Shown here: in pieces, positions 55,753 to 64,000 of the stretch
Layout of the letters: each line of letters opens with the position of its first letter
How positions within the stretch are numbered: the first letter of the stretch is position 1
NCBI RefSeq assembly: GCF_022557175.1
Contig: NZ_CP092915.1
Location: 3,720,001-3,784,000 of the forward strand
Direction of reading: 5' to 3'
Length of the DNA: 64,000 bases
Source of the DNA: Mycolicibacterium sp. YH-1
GTDB lineage: Bacteria > Actinomycetota > Actinomycetes > Mycobacteriales > Mycobacteriaceae
Notes under the pieces: generated by a model
What the model saw: only the letters and a program-made list of their open reading frames with translations
Databases searched by the model: none
What the model was told of the DNA's origin: nothing
Made by a program: the position numbers and the translations under genes

Positions 55753-57176
<1,424 letters not shown>

Positions 57177-57216
57177 GCTCACCAGCGCGGATGCTGCCAG
57201 CACGTACCTGAGGAAT

Positions 57217-57256: not shown

Positions 57257-57289
57257 GGGTTGGCCAGCGTGGTCGCTCTCAGCCAACCC
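57257..57289 (+). promoter_or_regulatory. Leader hairpin before the envelope cassette
   Basis: GGGTTGGC (57257-57264) and GCCAACCC (57282-57289) form a perfect 8-bp stem with a 17-nt loop, 68 nt upstream of the first cassette gene. Confidence 0.4.
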
Positions 57290-57356
57290 TCAGCGCTTCG
57301 GGAGCAGGGTGAGCTCATCGGCCGTGCGGCTGATCCTCAGGAAGGGAACACCATCC

Positions 57357-57599
57357 ATGATCAAGCTCAGACAGCGACTCATCGCCACGGTCGGCACGTT
57401 GCTGATCGCGGGGACGATCGGCGGGGCGAGCATGGCGTTGGCGCACTCGACACCCGCACCGCCCTCGCCCACCACCGCTGAGCAGTGCGACACCGCCGAA
57501 CCCGGCGGCACCCCGGATCAGCCGGGAGCCCCGGACACCGTCGGCGGCCAAGACGGTGATCAGGGCGGCCCCGAGGTGCCCGACGTTCCCTGCGGGTAG
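57357..57599 (+). CDS. Small secreted Pro/Gly/Asp-rich peptide
   Basis: The 80-residue protein has a clear signal peptide (IKLRQRLIATVGTLLIAGTIGGASMALA, about 1-29). The mature part is a short acidic, Pro/Gly-rich chain with two cysteines (EQCDTAEP and VPCG) near its ends. The ATG has GGAAGGG upstream. It is the first gene of the cassette and has no recognised family. It might be a secreted signal or an accessory ligand of the system; this is speculation. Confidence 0.65.
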   Translation: MIKLRQRLIATVGTLLIAGTIGGASMALAHSTPAPPSPTTAEQCDTAEPGGTPDQPGAPDTVGGQDGDQGGPEVPDVPCG

Positions 57600-57643
57600 A
57601 AGCACGCGACACCGTCCGTGTCACCGAGCGAGACGAGGCAATC

Positions 57644-58261
57644 ATGACCGGAAGAAGCACTCCCCTCATGGCGTTCGCTGGCGGAGCCGCAGTCGTCGTC
57701 ATCCTCAGCGGCTGCGGCACGGCGGCGGGGCCACCCGTCGCGCCGGCGACGCAGCCTGCGGCCAGCTCGACATCACAGGCCGCTGAGTCGAACCCGCCTG
57801 GCGACATCCCCGACAACCAGGCTTTCGTGGTCTACACCGCCACCGACCACTCCTACTCCGTCAAATACCCCGAGGGTTGGGCACGCACCACCGCCGGTCG
57901 CGACGTGGTGTTCAGTGACAAGTTCAACACAATCACCCTGACCCCCCACGACGGCTTCTACGAGCCCACTGAGGCCTACGCCCGCACGGTGGAGGTACCT
58001 CAGATCGCGTTGTCCACAACAGGATTCACACCAGGTCGTATCAGCACCGTACAACGCCCCGCCGGTCAGGTCGTGCTGATCACCTATCAGGGCGACTCCG
58101 CGCCGAGCCCCGTCACCGGGAAGTCGGTCAAACAGGACGTGGCGCGCTACGAATTCTCCCGCTCCGGGCGCGGCGTGGCGGTGACGCTGGCCGCACCGGC
58201 CGGCTCGGACAACGTCGATCCGTGGCGCACCGTGACCGACTCCTTCACCTGGCTGCAGTAG
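57644..58261 (+). CDS. PsbP-like lipoprotein
   Basis: The 205-residue protein has a lipobox (ILSGCGT, C24), a Pro/Ser-rich linker and a PsbP/Mog1-like domain (HSYSVKYPEGWARTT ... DSFTWLQ). It would be anchored on the outer face of the membrane. Its stop is directly followed by the ATG of the ABC ATPase gene, which ties it to the transporter. Possible role: substrate-binding or accessory factor. Confidence 0.82.
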   Translation: MTGRSTPLMAFAGGAAVVVILSGCGTAAGPPVAPATQPAASSTSQAAESNPPGDIPDNQAFVVYTATDHSYSVKYPEGWARTTAGRDVVFSDKFNTITLTPHDGFYEPTEAYARTVEVPQIALSTTGFTPGRISTVQRPAGQVVLITYQGDSAPSPVTGKSVKQDVARYEFSRSGRGVAVTLAAPAGSDNVDPWRTVTDSFTWLQ

Positions 58262-58975
58262 ATGAGTACGGCGGTCAGCGACTCACTCCCCGCAGCTCCG
58301 CTCGGGGCCGAACCGGCGCCCGCTGTGGAGGCGCTGTCGTTGTACCGGTTCTTTCGTGCCGGCGATGAGGAGGTCCTCGCCCTACGAGGGGTCTCGTTGA
58401 CGCTCCGCCCCGGAGAGCTGGTCGCGGTCGTCGGCCCATCCGGATCCGGCAAATCGACCCTGCTGGCATGTCTGGCTGGGCTCGACGAGCCCGACGGCGG
58501 CACCGTGCGGGTGAATGGGCTGCGGATCAGCCACCAATCCGAACACCGGCGGGCACGGCTGCGCGCTCGACACATCGGCATCCTGTATCAGGAGCGTAAT
58601 CTGCTCGCGCACTTGACCATCGAACAGAACATAGTGTTGACGCAACGAATCGCGGACCGATGCCCGTCAGTGCATCCGGCGGTGCTGCTCGCGTCGTTGG
58701 ACATCGCCGATCGCGGCGCGGCATATCCCGATCAGCTCTCCGGCGGTGAGCTGGCCCGTGCGGGGCTGGCCGTCGCCTTGGCCAACGACCCACTCATCGT
58801 CCTGGCCGACGAGCCAACCGGCGAACTCGACACGACAACCGAAGCGGACGTGTTGGCGATGCTGCGCCGTCGCGCCGCGGCAGGGGCTGCGATCTTGATC
58901 GCCAGCCACAGTCCCGCCGTGGCCGCCGGCGCCGACCGCGTCATCGAGCTCGCCGACGGCCAGGTCGTCACATGA
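58262..58975 (+). CDS. ABC transporter ATPase 1 (MacB/LolD-type)
   Basis: The 237-residue ABC ATPase has Walker A GPSGSGKS (58-65), Q-loop ILYQERN, signature LSGGELARAGLA, Walker B LIVLADEPTGELD and H-loop IASHSP. The ATG is adjacent to the lipoprotein stop. It is one of two ATPases in front of a single permease, so the pair may form a heterodimeric motor. Confidence 0.92.
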   Translation: MSTAVSDSLPAAPLGAEPAPAVEALSLYRFFRAGDEEVLALRGVSLTLRPGELVAVVGPSGSGKSTLLACLAGLDEPDGGTVRVNGLRISHQSEHRRARLRARHIGILYQERNLLAHLTIEQNIVLTQRIADRCPSVHPAVLLASLDIADRGAAYPDQLSGGELARAGLAVALANDPLIVLADEPTGELDTTTEADVLAMLRRRAAAGAAILIASHSPAVAAGADRVIELADGQVVT

Positions 58976-58991
58976 GCACCGGGCAGACACT

Positions 58992-59696
58992 GTGACCACA
59001 AGAGTCCGCGACGACGCAGCGGTGGTTCGTACCGACCGGGTCACCCGTTGCTTCGGCGTCGGTGCCGCCACCGTCGTTGCCGTCCGCGGTGTGACCGCCG
59101 CGGTGTCCCCCGATGCGCGGATCGCGTTAACGGGCCCGTCGGCGTCGGGCAAGTCCACCCTGCTGTATCTGCTTGCCGGGCTGGAGCATCCAACTTCGGG
59201 CACGGTGACCTGGCCGGCGGCCAGCCGGCGCGCCGCGGGCACGCCCGACCATGTGGGGCTCGTCTTCCAGGGCCGCAGCCTGCTTCCCAGTCTTGACGTC
59301 ATCGAGAACGTGCGCCTTCCACTGCTTTTCGCCGGCTGTGCGGAATCCGAGGCGACCGCCCGAGCGGGTAGCGCGTTGGACAGACTGGACATCGCCGGGC
59401 TGGCCGACGCGCTACCCGACACGTTGTCGGGCGGGCAAGCCCAGCGGGTCGCCATCGCGCGGGTCCTGGCGACGGGGCCGCGGCTGATCCTGGCCGATGA
59501 ACCCACCGGCCAACTCGACCACGCGGCCGCCGCAGTCGTTATCGACGTGCTGATCTCAGCGGCCGACGACCTCGGCGCGGCGTTGATCGTGTCCACCCAC
59601 GACCGGCTGATCGCGCGCCGCCTCCCCACCGAGTGGGCGATGCGCGATGGCCGGCTGCGCATGGTGACTCCCGCCCACAACGCGATACCCCGATGA
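58992..59696 (+). CDS. ABC transporter ATPase 2 (MacB/LolD-type)
   Basis: The 234-residue ABC ATPase has Walker A GPSASGKS (48-55), Q-loop VFQGRSLLPSLD, signature LSGGQAQRVAIARV, Walker B LILADEPTGQLD and H-loop VSTHDR. The start is GTG 58992. The stop overlaps the permease ATG as ATGA, so it is coupled to it. Confidence 0.92.
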   Translation: MTTRVRDDAAVVRTDRVTRCFGVGAATVVAVRGVTAAVSPDARIALTGPSASGKSTLLYLLAGLEHPTSGTVTWPAASRRAAGTPDHVGLVFQGRSLLPSLDVIENVRLPLLFAGCAESEATARAGSALDRLDIAGLADALPDTLSGGQAQRVAIARVLATGPRLILADEPTGQLDHAAAAVVIDVLISAADDLGAALIVSTHDRLIARRLPTEWAMRDGRLRMVTPAHNAIPR

Positions 59697-62356
59697 CGCG
59701 GGTGTGGCTTGCCGGCCTGTTGCGCCGCCGGCGGGCGAGACTGATGGGAGGAGCGGCCGGGATCGCCGTGGCGGTGGCGCTGATCGCGTGCCTGGGGTCG
59801 TTTCTCGCCGGTTCACAGGCCACCATGACCGACCGCGCGGTGCGCAGTGTGGTGGTCGACTGGCAGGTCCAGCTCACCCCTGGCGCCGACACCGCCGGCA
59901 CCATCAGCGTGATCGAAGCCGGGCCCGGCGTACGCGCCACCACACCAGTCGGTTTCGCCCACACCAGCGGCCTGTCGGCGCTCACGGGGTCGAGTACCCA
60001 AACCACCGGACCCGGCGTGGTTCTCGGCCTGTCCCCCGCCTACCGCGCGATGTTTCCCGAGGAGATCCGCACGCTGGCCGGCGCTGGTACCGGAGCGCTG
60101 CTCGCACAGCAGACCGCGGCGAACCTGCACGCCGCCCCTGGTGACATCATCAGCATCGGCCGCACAGGCCTACCACCTGTCCCGGTGAGAGTCGACGGCA
60201 TCGTCGATCTGCCGCAGGCGAATTCACTGTTTCAGACCGTCGGAGCGCCGGCCAACGCACAGCCCGCCGCACCGCCGGACAATGTGGTGTTGATGCCCGA
60301 GTTGCAGTGGCATCAACTATTCGACCCGCTATCGGTCACGCGCCCCGATCTGGTGTCCACTCAAATCCACGTCCAACGTGACCACAGCCTGCCGCCCAAT
60401 CCGGCCGATGCCTACACCTCCGTGCGCGCGGCGGCGCGCAACCTGGAAGCCCGCAGCGCCGGTGCCGCACTGGTCGGTGACAACCTCGGTGCCGCTCTGG
60501 ACGCTGCGCGCGGCGACGCCGCCTACGCCCAGGTCCTGTTCCTATTTCTCGGTCTGCCCGGTGTCGTGGTGGCCGCGCTGCTGACCGCCACCATCTCCTC
60601 TGCCGGTGCGAGTCGGCGTCGCGCCGAGCAGGCGTTACTGCGGGTCCGCGGCGCGACCGCACGTCAACTGCTCGGCCTCGCCGCCGTGGAGGCTGCTCTC
60701 ATCGGCGTCATCGGGGCCGTGATGGGGCTGTTCGCAGCCGCGGCGGTGAACGCGGTCGCGTTCGGGTCGCCCCGACTGGGCTCCACCCTCGCCACCGCGG
60801 TCGGTTGGCCCGCGACTGCGGCGGCCGTCGGGATCGTGGTGGCCATGGCGACGGTACTGCTGCCGGCGCGTCGCGACCTGCGCGAGCACACCATCATGGC
60901 CGAACGCGCCCAGATCGATTCGCCCCGCCAGCCGATCTGGGCACGGCTGGGCCTGGACATCGCGGTCCTTGCCGGTGCGACGCTGGTGTTCTTCGCCACC
61001 ACGGGCACCGGCTACCAGTTGGTTCTGGCGCCCGAAGGCGTCCCGGCAATCTCTGTGTCCTACTGGGCGTTTGCCGGTCCCGCCCTGTTGTGGCTGGGGG
61101 CCGCTCTGGTGACCTGGCGGCTCGCCGACCTTCTACTCGGGCGCGGTCGCGGCCTGATAGCCGGGGTGCTGCGACCGTCGGCCGGGCAGCTGGCGGGCAC
61201 CATCGCGGCGAGCATGGCACGGCAGCGCCGGCCCGTGATTCGCGGCATCGTGATACTCACACTGGCGGTCGCCTTCGCGGCATCAACGGCGACATTCAAC
61301 GCCACCTATCGCCAACAGGCCGAAGTGGATGCACGGCTGACCAACGGCGCCGATGTGACCGTCACCGCAGCACCGGGGACGGCGGCCCCGCCGGAGACCG
61401 CCGCGATGCTGTCCGGTGTGCCCGGCGTGCGGGCGGTGGAGCCCATGCAACACCGATTCGCCTACATCGGCGCTGACCTGCAAGACCTCTACGGGGTCAG
61501 CCCCGCGACCATCACCGGTGCAACCGCCTTGCAGGACAGCTATTTTCCGCACGCTACCGCCACCGGGCTCATGGACGTCTTGGGTGCCAAACCGGACTCG
61601 ATCCTGGTCTCGGCGGAGACCGTCAACGACTTCCAACTGCAGCCGGGTGACCCGGTGACGCTGCGGGTCATCGACACCGCCACCGGGCAACCCCGCCCGG
61701 TCACCTTTCACTACGCAGGGGTCGTCTCGGAGTTCCCCACCGCCCCCAGGGACAGCTTCTTCGTCGCCAACGCCAGCTATATCGCCGCCAAGACCGGCAC
61801 GGCCAACCCGGGGGTGTTCCTGGTCGATACCGGTGGCCGCGACACCGCGGCGGTGGCCGGCCGAATCCGCGCCATGGTGGGCAACTCCGCCACGGTGACC
61901 GACATCGGGACCGTCCGCGCCAGTGTGGGTTCCAGCCTGACGGCGGTGGATCTGTCCGGGTTGACCCGTATCGAACTGTCCTTCGCGATGGCCCTCGCAG
62001 TCAGCGCGGGTGCCCTGGTGCTGGCGTTGAGTCTGGCCGAACGGCGCCGGACCTACGCCCTCATGTCCGCACTCGGAGCGCGAACACCCCACCTGCGTGC
62101 GATGGTGTTCAGCGAGACCGGGGTACTGACCGCCGTCGGGATGATCGCCGGCATCGCGACCGGATCCCTGCTGTCGGTGATGCTGGTCAAGGTGCTCAGC
62201 GGCGTTTTCGACCCACCGCCGGACGCTGTCGCCATCCCGTGGTTGTATCTGGCCACTGTCATCACGGTGACGACAGGCGCACTGGGCGCGGTCAGTGTCG
62301 CAGCGGTCGTGATCGTGAGTAAGGGCTCGACCGTGACCGCCATTCGTGACCTGTGA
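59693..62356 (+). CDS. FtsX/MacB-type ABC permease, duplicated
   Basis: The 887-residue permease has about ten membrane helices: one N-terminal, a large extracellular domain (about 40-275), a four-to-six-helix FtsX-like block (about 280-540), a second extracellular domain (about 540-755) and a final FtsX-like block (about 760-885; SFAMALAVSAGALVLALSLAERRRTYALMSALGA). This is the duplicated MacB/FtsX layout of exporters and antibiotic-sensing ABC systems. ATG 59693 overlaps ATPase 2. Confidence 0.9.
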   Translation: MTRVWLAGLLRRRRARLMGGAAGIAVAVALIACLGSFLAGSQATMTDRAVRSVVVDWQVQLTPGADTAGTISVIEAGPGVRATTPVGFAHTSGLSALTGSSTQTTGPGVVLGLSPAYRAMFPEEIRTLAGAGTGALLAQQTAANLHAAPGDIISIGRTGLPPVPVRVDGIVDLPQANSLFQTVGAPANAQPAAPPDNVVLMPELQWHQLFDPLSVTRPDLVSTQIHVQRDHSLPPNPADAYTSVRAAARNLEARSAGAALVGDNLGAALDAARGDAAYAQVLFLFLGLPGVVVAALLTATISSAGASRRRAEQALLRVRGATARQLLGLAAVEAALIGVIGAVMGLFAAAAVNAVAFGSPRLGSTLATAVGWPATAAAVGIVVAMATVLLPARRDLREHTIMAERAQIDSPRQPIWARLGLDIAVLAGATLVFFATTGTGYQLVLAPEGVPAISVSYWAFAGPALLWLGAALVTWRLADLLLGRGRGLIAGVLRPSAGQLAGTIAASMARQRRPVIRGIVILTLAVAFAASTATFNATYRQQAEVDARLTNGADVTVTAAPGTAAPPETAAMLSGVPGVRAVEPMQHRFAYIGADLQDLYGVSPATITGATALQDSYFPHATATGLMDVLGAKPDSILVSAETVNDFQLQPGDPVTLRVIDTATGQPRPVTFHYAGVVSEFPTAPRDSFFVANASYIAAKTGTANPGVFLVDTGGRDTAAVAGRIRAMVGNSATVTDIGTVRASVGSSLTAVDLSGLTRIELSFAMALAVSAGALVLALSLAERRRTYALMSALGARTPHLRAMVFSETGVLTAVGMIAGIATGSLLSVMLVKVLSGVFDPPPDAVAIPWLYLATVITVTTGALGAVSVAAVVIVSKGSTVTAIRDL

Positions 62357-62429
62357 CGGCCGCCGACATCCGCCCGGCGGGCCATCAGCTCTCAGCGGTT
62401 GTTCAGCGACCCTCACCGAAGCTGGCCGG

Positions 62430-63140
62430 ATGACCGACCGTGCCTGCACGCCGCGGGCGTGCAGCGTCGCAGCCCTGCTGGCGTCGCTGTTGCTGGGACT
62501 TGCGCTGATCGCCCACCACGCCGTCGCAGGCACCGCCCTCGACCACGCCGTGCTGGGCTGGATGGTTCACCATCGCAGTCCCGCGCTGACCTCCTGGGCG
62601 ATCGCGGTGACCGATGTCGGCAGCCCGGTCGGTATCGGGGTGCTGGCAATCGCGGTATCCGCAGTGTTGTGGTGGCGGCGCGGGTCGCCGTGGCCGGCGG
62701 TGGTGGTCCTGGCCACGGTGGCCGCGTCCGCGGCGATCAGCACCGCGACCAAGGTGGTGGTGGGTGCTCACCGTCCCGTGCAGACCCTGCAACTCGTCCT
62801 CGAGACCGATCCCTCGTTCCCCTCCGGCCACGTCACCGGCACCCTGGCCCTGCTGGGTGCACTCACCGTCGTCACCGCCCGCCATGTCGGGCCTGCCGCG
62901 CGAGCGGCCCTGATCACCGCCACGGTGGTCGGCACCGCGGTTGTCGCATCCACCCGTCTCTACCTCGGGGTGCACTGGCTGAGTGACGTTCTCGGCGGAG
63001 TTCTGCTCGGCGCCACCGCGGTGGTGCTCGCCCACATCGCCCTTCGGCTCGTCACTGCGAGCCGAACTCGTCAATCCACCAGCGCCACACCCGCCGATGC
63101 CGAACAATCGAGTACCGCTCCCGCCCGGCTCGGCAGATGA
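62430..63140 (+). CDS. PAP2-family membrane phosphatase
   Basis: The 236-residue protein has about five helices and all three PAP2 motifs: KVVVGAHRP (K108, R115), PSGH (131-134) and STRLYLGVHWLSD (R176, H182). Members include undecaprenyl-pyrophosphate phosphatases such as BcrC. Placement in an ABC/kinase cassette suggests lipid-carrier recycling. ATG 62430 was chosen; an in-frame GTG further upstream overlaps the permease end. C-terminal tail is Thr/Ser-rich. Confidence 0.88.
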   Translation: MTDRACTPRACSVAALLASLLLGLALIAHHAVAGTALDHAVLGWMVHHRSPALTSWAIAVTDVGSPVGIGVLAIAVSAVLWWRRGSPWPAVVVLATVAASAAISTATKVVVGAHRPVQTLQLVLETDPSFPSGHVTGTLALLGALTVVTARHVGPAARAALITATVVGTAVVASTRLYLGVHWLSDVLGGVLLGATAVVLAHIALRLVTASRTRQSTSATPADAEQSSTAPARLGR

Positions 63141-63195
63141 CGGCGAACAGGCCGAGACGGCAGGAAGCACCACCGAACAGACACCAGAGGGGACG

Positions 63196-64000
63196 ATGTC
63201 GTTCACTAGCAGGATGTCGCTCACTGGCCGTCTGGCACGGTGGACGGTGCGGACGCGGTCGACCGCGGCGGCCGCCCTGGTCGTGACCGTTGGTGTCGGC
63301 CTGGCGTCCGCCGCGATGTTGCTGGTGCTCTATCACACGTTGCAGCAGTCCACCCAAGCCGCGGGAGCGGCGCGCGCCGCGCAGCTCGTCGAGCAGCTGC
63401 GCAACGACGCCCCGGCCGACCTCGATCCCGGCCTGCTCGGCACCGACGGCCAGGTGGGGGTCATCCAACTACTCGACGAAAAGGGTTCTGTGATCCTGGG
63501 TTCCGCGGGGGCCCCGGCCACGGCGCTGGTGCCGATCGAGGTACCGCCCACGCAGTCGGTGTCGGTGGGCCGTGTGGAGTTCGCCGAAGATGGCGGCGAC
63601 TACTGGGTGACCGCACGCGGCGCCGACACCCCCGCCGGACCGGTGACCGTGTTGGTCGGCGCCGACCGCGAACCCGTCGAGACGATCGTGGCGACCGTCG
63701 CCCTGTTGCTGGGCATCAGCGGACCGTTGCTCGTCATCCTCGTTGCCTGGGCCACCTACCTGCTGGTGGGGCGCGCGTTGCGACCCGTGGAGCGGATCCG
63801 GGCACGGGTGTCCTCCATTTCCACCGCGCAGCTCGACGAACGCGTCCCGGTCCCACCGACCGGTGACGAGATCGCGCACCTCGCGCAGACCATGAACGAC
63901 ATGCTGGCCCGGCTGGAAGCCGGGCACGCCGCTCAGCGTCGATTCGTCAGCGACGCGTCCCACGAACTACGCAGCCCCCTGGCCGCGATCAGCACCGCAT
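63196..64000 (+). CDS. Sensor histidine kinase, N-terminal part (cut by window end)
   Basis: The open frame runs to the window edge with 268 codons. It has a helix (about 24-47, AAAALVVTVGVGLASAAMLLVL), an extracytoplasmic sensor domain (about 48-155), a second helix (about 161-185), a HAMP linker (LLVGRALRPVERIRARVSSIS) and the start of HisKA with the phospho-accepting histidine H256 (FVSDASHELRSPLAAIS). The start ATG 63196 has GAGGGG upstream. The rest of the kinase is outside the window; a response regulator is expected nearby but cannot be seen. Confidence 0.9.
   Translation, partial: MSFTSRMSLTGRLARWTVRTRSTAAAALVVTVGVGLASAAMLLVLYHTLQQSTQAAGAARAAQLVEQLRNDAPADLDPGLLGTDGQVGVIQLLDEKGSVILGSAGAPATALVPIEVPPTQSVSVGRVEFAEDGGDYWVTARGADTPAGPVTVLVGADREPVETIVATVALLLGISGPLLVILVAWATYLLVGRALRPVERIRARVSSISTAQLDERVPVPPTGDEIAHLAQTMNDMLARLEAGHAAQRRFVSDASHELRSPLAAISTA

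Follow-up and report, generated by a model that had tools for sequence, protein, structure and literature searches.

The last part of a 64,000-nucleotide stretch of the genome of Mycolicibacterium sp. YH-1 (positions 3,720,001-3,784,000 of its single 7.27-Mb contig; hereafter, the window) carries a cassette of seven genes that contains a real, conserved module, made of known kinds of parts in a new combination and, as far as we searched the literature, unnamed. Namely, a near-fixed set of four genes, encoding a lipoprotein, two ATP-binding cassette (ABC) ATPases and a permease, is found in Actinomycetota, Pseudomonadota, Deinococcus and a cyanobacterium, is often plasmid-borne, and generally has a two-component system nearby and in many cases also a gene of the DUF347 family. 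Starting from the gene content, the conservation of the module, its two ATPase classes, the predicted folds and the placement of a short repeat, we propose, with a probability of roughly 0.45, that this is a mobile, two-component-controlled envelope-protection system around a type VII (mechanotransmission) ABC machine, the likeliest insult being a toxic metal cation or the damage that it does to the membrane. A first-pass annotation of the window, which had seen here an envelope-stress operon answering to lipid II-directed drugs, was right in outline and wrong on the operon and on the constant parts, with the nature of the stress left undecided.

Conservation and distribution of the module

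The module loci were found by searching with the permease alone, and the other genes therefore serve as an independent test. Our genome collection yielded 25 loci, including ones from Mycolicibacterium, Streptomyces, Nocardioides, Solirubrobacter, Mesorhizobium and Rubrivivax. Within the genus, the true permease occurs in 4 of 60 genomes (two more matches of about 19 bits were left out of the count), and within the phylum in 19 of 396 genomes at E <= 1e-30, 12 of these scoring above 600 bits. Moreover, 29 plasmid records match the permease, from Rhizobium, Mesorhizobium, Bradyrhizobium, Agrobacterium, Rhodococcus, Deinococcus, Paraburkholderia, Chroococcidiopsis and M. rufum; 12 of these plasmids were opened, along with two found through DUF347.

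Over 43 loci the order lipoprotein-ATPase-ATPase-permease is nearly constant. In particular, among the 36 whose upstream DNA extends to 3 kb or more, the lipoprotein lies upstream of the permease in 33, the misses being the distant L083-L085, and two ATPases are present in 34. The 32 loci with both flanks carry a histidine kinase in 29 cases (kinase genes being common in general), a response regulator in 30, DUF347 in 17, a PAP2 phosphatase in 13 (by our own profile, not run at Pfam's cut-off), an OFeT-like permease in 9 (again by our own profile) and a DUF1344/CusF-like protein in 5. For 12 plasmid loci, the corresponding counts are 12 for the lipoprotein, 12 for two ATPases, 12 for a kinase or regulator (L094 being counted on a kinase remnant alone), 11 for DUF347 and 7 for PAP2. 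Note that the loci are partly non-independent: L017 and L086 are near-identical, and L038 and L082 have the same match lengths and scores. Co-conservation thus largely bears out the earlier suggestion of a unit linked to a sensor kinase. As for all seven families being conserved together, this holds for the lipoprotein, the two ATPases and the permease, with the two-component system as a usual companion, and fails for PAP2, which is frequent and not constant, and for the secreted peptide, recognised in Mycobacteriales only; going by the locus counts, we rejected both as core parts of the module.

Because the lipoprotein and permease distances are strongly correlated (Mantel r of 0.868 over 42 loci, a value reached in 0 of 2000 permutations), the two genes have travelled together. 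The permease tree shows a broad split between Actinomycetota and the rest, and since a Rhodococcus plasmid copy is nested in the mycobacterial ones, it suggests transfer within groups.

The transporter and its lipoprotein

The permease is predicted to be a fused, ten-helix type VII protein with two large extracytoplasmic domains, its modelled fold being nearest to those of YbbP and BceB. Two FtsX stretches, together with the structural matches, place it in the type VII (FtsX/MacB) class of ABC proteins. In Foldseek, YbbP is the best full-length match (1.1e-18, versus 2.4e-10 for BceB), while in Z the two are level. The permease falls short of the NCBIfam YbbP equivalog (18.8 bits, cut-off 999) and of the ADOP duplicated permease family TIGR03434 (28 bits, cut-off 622.3), and both ATPases score best with MacB, LolD and FtsE models, each below the equivalog cut-off. 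The description of the cassette as a MacB-like module with two ATPases was therefore sound as regards a type VII ABC with a large permease, and loose as regards MacB. Namely, MacB and LolCDE share with the present system the type VII fold, related ATPases and outer partner proteins, but their permeases are four-helix proteins that work as dimers, and the MacB ATPase is fused, whereas here a single fused, duplicated permease goes with separate ATPase genes.

In a tree of the 50 of 55 loci that have exactly two ATPase open reading frames (ORFs), the ATPases form two clean classes, with 0 misplaced leaves and a split support of 0.925, and the catalytic K, E and H are kept in 50 of 50 members of each class. 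Judged from this tree, the two classes are ancient and distinct, unlike in YbbAP.

What do these likenesses say about function? BceAB-BceRS shares with the present system a ten-helix permease and a linked two-component system, and one could accordingly see antimicrobial defence here, in which the ABC machine would, like BceAB, clear the membrane of antibiotics that are peptides or act on lipid II, with PAP2/UppP in an accessory role and detection left to the two-component system. However, BceAB has one ATPase type and one large extracellular domain, and BceS-type kinases are without an extracytoplasmic sensor domain, whereas we find two ATPase types, two large outer domains, a lipoprotein partner and a kinase with an outer sensor domain. 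The wide Foldseek lead of YbbP and the recurrence of metal-type neighbors also speak against antimicrobial defence, and we consider it somewhat unlikely.

The YbbAP-TesA system of E. coli, also of type VII, has in common with ours the fused, duplicated, ten-helix permease, whose two large outer domains sit between helices 1 and 2 and between helices 7 and 8, and an extracytoplasmic partner. It differs in using two copies of YbbA instead of two distinct ATPases and in having the TesA hydrolase in place of a PsbP-fold lipoprotein (no search aimed at TesA was made), while the system described here is, in addition, sensor-linked and mobile. The module could, then, be a YbbAP-TesA-like extraction machine for lipid housekeeping, repairing or trimming outer-leaflet lipids, with the metal genes as plasmid passengers. 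The rank of YbbP among the structural matches and the action of PAP2 enzymes on lipid phosphates agree with this, as does the proposal that YbbAP extracts hydrophobic compounds (PMC12646458). That said, a patchy, often plasmid-borne and sensor-linked distribution, as given above for the genus and the phylum, is unlike that of a housekeeping system, and this explanation strikes us as unlikely.

The lipoprotein is predicted to share the fold of the PsbP, Mog1, LpqN and DcrB proteins, while being a family of its own with a GDI-x-D motif. Its model (mean pLDDT, the predicted local distance difference test, of 85) matches PsbP/Mog1 structures, with 40 chains at E <= 0.001, the best at 1.1e-5, including PsbP, Mog1 and LpqN; chains of Tsi3 and SciW/EagT6 match about equally well. 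Against Pfam PsbP (PF01789) it scores 21.1 bits, below the gathering cut-off of 23.5, and a sequence search of the PDB gave one weak, unrelated match. GDI-x-D is invariant in a 33-row alignment and reads mostly GDIPD.

The secreted peptide has no Pfam or NCBIfam match, and no convincing paralog was found elsewhere in the genome (next best E of 0.07). Its relatives, which lie beside other module copies and sensor-DUF347 loci, have one to four PEPGDTPD-type repeats per protein; most read EPGDTPD, with EPGGTPD in the window and EPKDTPD in L049. The cysteines that had been taken as a mark of the peptide are there in the window copy (two of them), and are not family-wide, the L018, L051, L101 and L103 relatives being without cysteine. 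A scan for PGDxPD recognised the peptide in Mycobacteriales only; since it overlooks the window's own copy (PGGTPD), as well as L049, and lists one spurious frame (L047), absence elsewhere is not established by it. Counts by an iterated profile (11 of 32) were set aside as unreliable, as that profile also matches the lipoprotein ORF. The PEPGDTPD-type repeats (L018, L051, L087, L101, L103) resemble PPGDIPD of the lipoprotein, a striking but short likeness that may be due to chance.

Two-component system and DUF347

The histidine kinase has, by eye from the translation, an extracytoplasmic domain of about 110-120 residues between two hydrophobic stretches, with HAMP from residue 189. A response regulator, sought past position 64000 at the suggestion of the first-pass annotation, is present at L009:10588-11265 on the minus strand (L009 position + 53999 = window position), and is of OmpR/PhoB type (receiver PF00072, 88.6 bits; winged helix PF00486, 91.6 bits). 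It lies tail-to-tail with the kinase, with a 28-bp overlap at L009:10588-10615, equivalent to window positions 64587-64614. Such 3'-end overlaps, of 28-66 bp, occur in 9 of 11 convergent kinase/regulator pairs hand-picked for measuring (one of the loci, L086, is a near-duplicate of L017), which is an unusual two-component layout.

Next to the regulator, and reading away from it, is the DUF347 gene (L009:11400-12665, plus strand), whose product is a 421-residue membrane protein; a sequence search of the PDB with it returned no match. In the genus, DUF347 occurs in 21 of 60 genomes, which include all 4 permease genomes (Fisher P of 0.012), and it lies 2.4-6.4 kb from the permease in 5 of 5 permease loci of that sample. 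In a 60-genome sample of the phylum, it is above cut-off in 3 of 6 permease-positive genomes versus 1 of 54 others (P of 0.002), and in two of those three (G094, G113) it sits on a different contig from the permease, so that linkage is not demonstrated there. The family comes in a long form, of about 400-416 residues from the domain start and with an extra C-terminal region, and a short form of about 253-286 residues (a broken copy in L040 gives two still shorter pieces). In the sampled loci, the long form is nearly confined to Mycobacteriales, the exception being L020 of Streptomyces. Because L100-L103, which are without ABC genes, keep a closely related kinase/regulator pair next to a DUF347 gene bearing the repeat described below, the mycobacterial core looks like the sensor plus long-form DUF347, with the ABC genes, PAP2 and the peptide as further members. 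Separately, an IncHI2A plasmid of Enterobacter hormaechei (L091) carries, between insertion sequence elements, genes for DUF347, a response regulator and a kinase-like ATP-binding protein in this order, with no ABC module within the stretch.

A repeat and a predicted regulon

Same-type direct repeats (YTCAGC-N5-YTCAGC, with an 11-bp period) precede the peptide, PAP2 and DUF347 genes, and for this reason the sequence suggests three promoters and one regulon in three units, rather than the one probable operon of seven same-strand genes proposed at first, which is too simple. The 19-kb locus has 3 exact sites versus 0.02 expected, and three of seven random sites were as tightly clustered in 23 of 200000 simulations, both figures being too favorable, as two sites of this same locus had served to choose the pattern by eye; the third (PAP2) site and the other loci and genomes offer a fairer test. 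The 7.27-Mb genome has 7 exact sites, 3 of them in the cassette, while a reversed control pattern has 4. The remaining four (L042, L043, L047, L048) fall within plausible coding ORFs or right at their start, two sense and two antisense, and none of them is an obvious promoter.

Seven Mycobacteriaceae loci (L009, L017, L018, L049-L052) together hold 22 sites, and L017 keeps both the peptide-box and the PAP2-box arrangement. A check of every DUF347 gene of the fetched loci supplied to it found the box before 12 of 14 long-form genes of Mycobacteriales (11 of 13 without the near-duplicate L086; the misses are L050 and L104), before 1 of 11 short-form genes of Mycobacteriales, and before 0 of 24 DUF347 genes of other taxa. 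Outside this check, boxes also stand directly before short-form genes at G038:C3:38070 and G058:C25:13872 in the genus genomes. The long-form boxes are always 70-71 bp before the domain and are always followed, 10 nt on, by TANNNT (TAGCGT, TAGGTT, TACGGT or TACGTT), with the start codon read 7-8 nt past it (in L049, L052 and L100, a GTG 2 nt on is an alternative). After the peptide boxes comes CAGGGT, and after the PAP2 boxes GAAGCT or GACAGT, and we infer that these, like TANNNT, are -10 elements. Across whole genomes, the mean number of boxes is 9.25 in the 4 permease genomes, 4.1 in the 17 with DUF347 only and 3.5 in the 39 with neither. This enrichment is modest (permease versus neither, P of 0.001, with 0.22 for the control pattern; all DUF347 versus neither, P of 0.03).

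The PAP2 protein, which scores above its Pfam cut-off of 27.2 bits, had been described as having intact motifs, and it does: KX6RP, PSGH and RX5HX3D, which we take to be the catalytic motifs of the family, can be read from its sequence. Given that a separate copy of the repeat occupies 62391-62407, with an ATG following at 62430, the GTG start at 62346 is probably wrong.

Could the ABC exporter, the PAP2 gene and the sensor kinase merely adjoin one another by chance? The inconstancy of PAP2 and the peptide, the commonness of kinase genes and the separate contigs of G094 and G113 would allow it. Against this, the gene order recurs across phyla, three of the seven genomic boxes fall inside the cassette, PAP2 occurs in 13 of 32 loci compared with a density of about 0.023 per 21.5 kb across 31 phylum genomes, and DUF347 is never more than 6.4 kb from the permease in the genus sample, all of which makes a chance neighborhood highly improbable.

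Gene layout and neighbors

ORF and family-profile checks support all seven ORFs of the cassette as real, with families as first stated (Table 1). The cassette is flanked by gapA on one side and, past DUF347, by whiA on the other; upstream, the minus strand carries genes that, from their translations, we take to be gapA, pgk and tpiA. Also on that strand, at 56871-57203, is a small ORF whose product has a hydrophobic N-terminus, a conserved pair of cysteines and no Pfam or NCBIfam match. Relatives of it lie near the module at L017:17070-17375 (minus strand) and L018:13021-13707 (plus strand), and in 3 of 32 flanked loci in total.

Table 1. Genes and predicted regulatory repeats of the cassette (window positions unless marked L009)
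Feature	Position	Strand	Details
CTCAGC-N5-CTCAGC direct repeat, predicted response-regulator box	57278..57294	+	CAGGGT (-10-like, 57305-57310) 10 nt on
Secreted acidic, proline-rich small peptide	57357..57599	+	80 residues, signal peptide, 2 Cys, EPGGTPD
Lipoprotein, predicted PsbP/Mog1 fold	57644..58261	+	lipobox Cys 24, GDI-x-D
ABC ATPase 1	58262..58975	+	LSGGE signature class; 104.9 bits
ABC ATPase 2	58992..59696	+	LSGGQ signature class; 103.1 bits
Fused, duplicated FtsX-type permease	59693..62356	+	887 residues; two FtsX stretches, 69.9 bits
CTCAGC-N5-TTCAGC direct repeat, predicted box of PAP2-kinase unit	62391..62407	+	GAAGCT 10 nt downstream, ATG 62430
PAP2 phosphatase	62430..63140 (probable revised start)	+	59.6 bits and motifs
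HAMP/HisKA/HATPase sensor kinase	63196..64000, on to window-equivalent 64614	+	complete as L009:9197-10615
YTCAGC-N5-YTCAGC repeat before DUF347	L009:11359		predicted box

A possible role in metal or membrane stress

What kind of insult would such a system answer to? The recurrent neighbors of the module (DUF347, the iron-lead permease family and UppP/PAP2) point to metal or membrane stress no less than to lipid II antibiotics, so that envelope damage by lipid II-directed drugs, the role envisaged at first, is one option. In particular, Pfam confirms OFeT_1 in 5 of 5 tested loci (L018, L028, L030, L032, L041); the genus-wide background for it is 2 of 60 genomes, yet most of the module loci that carry it come from other taxa, so that no fair ratio can be formed. 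A BacA/UppP gene adjoins the M. rufum copy, and in rhizobia a DUF1344 gene follows the permease. Near the module there are, furthermore, genes for a divalent metal cation transporter (Deinococcus, Chroococcidiopsis) and, in M. loti, for GDT1-type and cation transporters. A Frankia paper reports, from an array meta-analysis, lead-induced operons with UppP and DUF347 (PMC4531530), and another source describes a pbr lead operon in which an iron-lead permease goes with a UPP phosphatase said to provide phosphate for precipitation (PMC3431237). It is on account of the recurrent metal and polyprenyl-lipid neighbors, the lead-induced UppP/DUF347 operons and the pbr pairing that we favor, with modest confidence, stress from metals, or membrane stress caused by them, over lipid II antibiotics. 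The pbr lead-resistance operon of Cupriavidus metallidurans and some of our loci share a PAP2-type enzyme and an iron-lead-transporter-like permease; the loci differ from it in their two-component system and ABC machine, and no MerR-type PbrR or P-type ATPase is among the annotated ORFs of L009 (no dedicated search was made), although a P-type ATPase is present near the Paraburkholderia copy. No published description of the combination was found in the open literature searched, where papers on DUF347 were sampled in part, in agreement with the first impression that it is not a described system.

That said, a number of points weigh against a metal-responsive envelope system. The heavy-metal two-component subfamily (CzcRS/SilRS/CopRS; TIGR01386/TIGR01387) scores best and still remains below cut-off (211.4 versus 292.55 and 232.1 versus 279.2), and neither in the lipoprotein nor in the inspected portion of the kinase sensor alignment is there an obvious conserved His/Cys metal ligand. 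Streptomyces and Nocardioides loci often have a different kinase family, and these, like the rhizobial loci, are mostly without the repeat, which is largely restricted to Mycobacteriales. DUF347 is missing from 15 and PAP2 from 19 of the 32 flanked loci. The metal neighbors vary, with fluoride CrcB and DedA genes near the Rhodococcus copy; the OFeT-like match of L050 has no OFeT_1 Pfam match in its genome (G035), and both the ZIP-like protein of M. rufum (33.4 versus 35.1) and the CusF_Ec match (21.5 versus 27) are below cut-off. The link of DUF347 to metals comes from the one meta-analysis cited, whose organism is not evident from the text consulted. To these should be added the limits given above on the kinase and PAP2 counts and on the repeat statistics.

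From the proposed envelope-protection system follows a mechanism in which binding, dimer formation, transport, substrate and inducer are all conditional. Namely, the kinase would sense the insult outside the membrane and activate the PhoB-type regulator, which would bind the 11-bp-period repeat beside the -10 element and turn on three units: peptide-lipoprotein-ATPase 1-ATPase 2-permease, PAP2-kinase, and DUF347. The two ATPases would act as an obligate heterodimer on the fused ten-helix permease, with the PsbP-fold lipoprotein as a dedicated outer partner, at the position of TesA in the case of YbbP, or of LolA in that of LolC. On binding ATP, the machine would extract a hydrophobic or lipid-like substrate from the outer leaflet, to be handed to the lipoprotein or freed near it, while PAP2 would recycle polyprenyl diphosphate, releasing phosphate, and DUF347 would move or sense the toxic agent. 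A more specific version would be an undescribed, widely mobile metal- or envelope-defence system (sensor-controlled type VII ABC machine with fused permease, obligate ATPase heterodimer and lipoprotein partner, acting together with DUF347 and a polyprenyl-diphosphate phosphatase) that clears metal-damaged or metal-bound outer-leaflet lipids, with PEPGDTPD and PPGDIPD as possible versions of one docking or cation-binding element. We lowered our estimate for it, from unlikely to quite unlikely, because the peptide of the window has PGGTPD.

Significance

Four transporter genes emerge from the analysis as a conserved module shared by no fewer than four bacterial phyla, and with it come a linked sensor and a few promoters predicted as targets. 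The DUF347 family, whose function is not known, and the PsbP-fold lipoprotein can in this way be tested as parts of one pathway. With this module, the type VII ABC class would come to include a heterodimeric machine whose outer partner is of a new kind; if the metal reading is true, the module would also represent an ABC-based metal-tolerance strategy carried on plasmids of soil bacteria.

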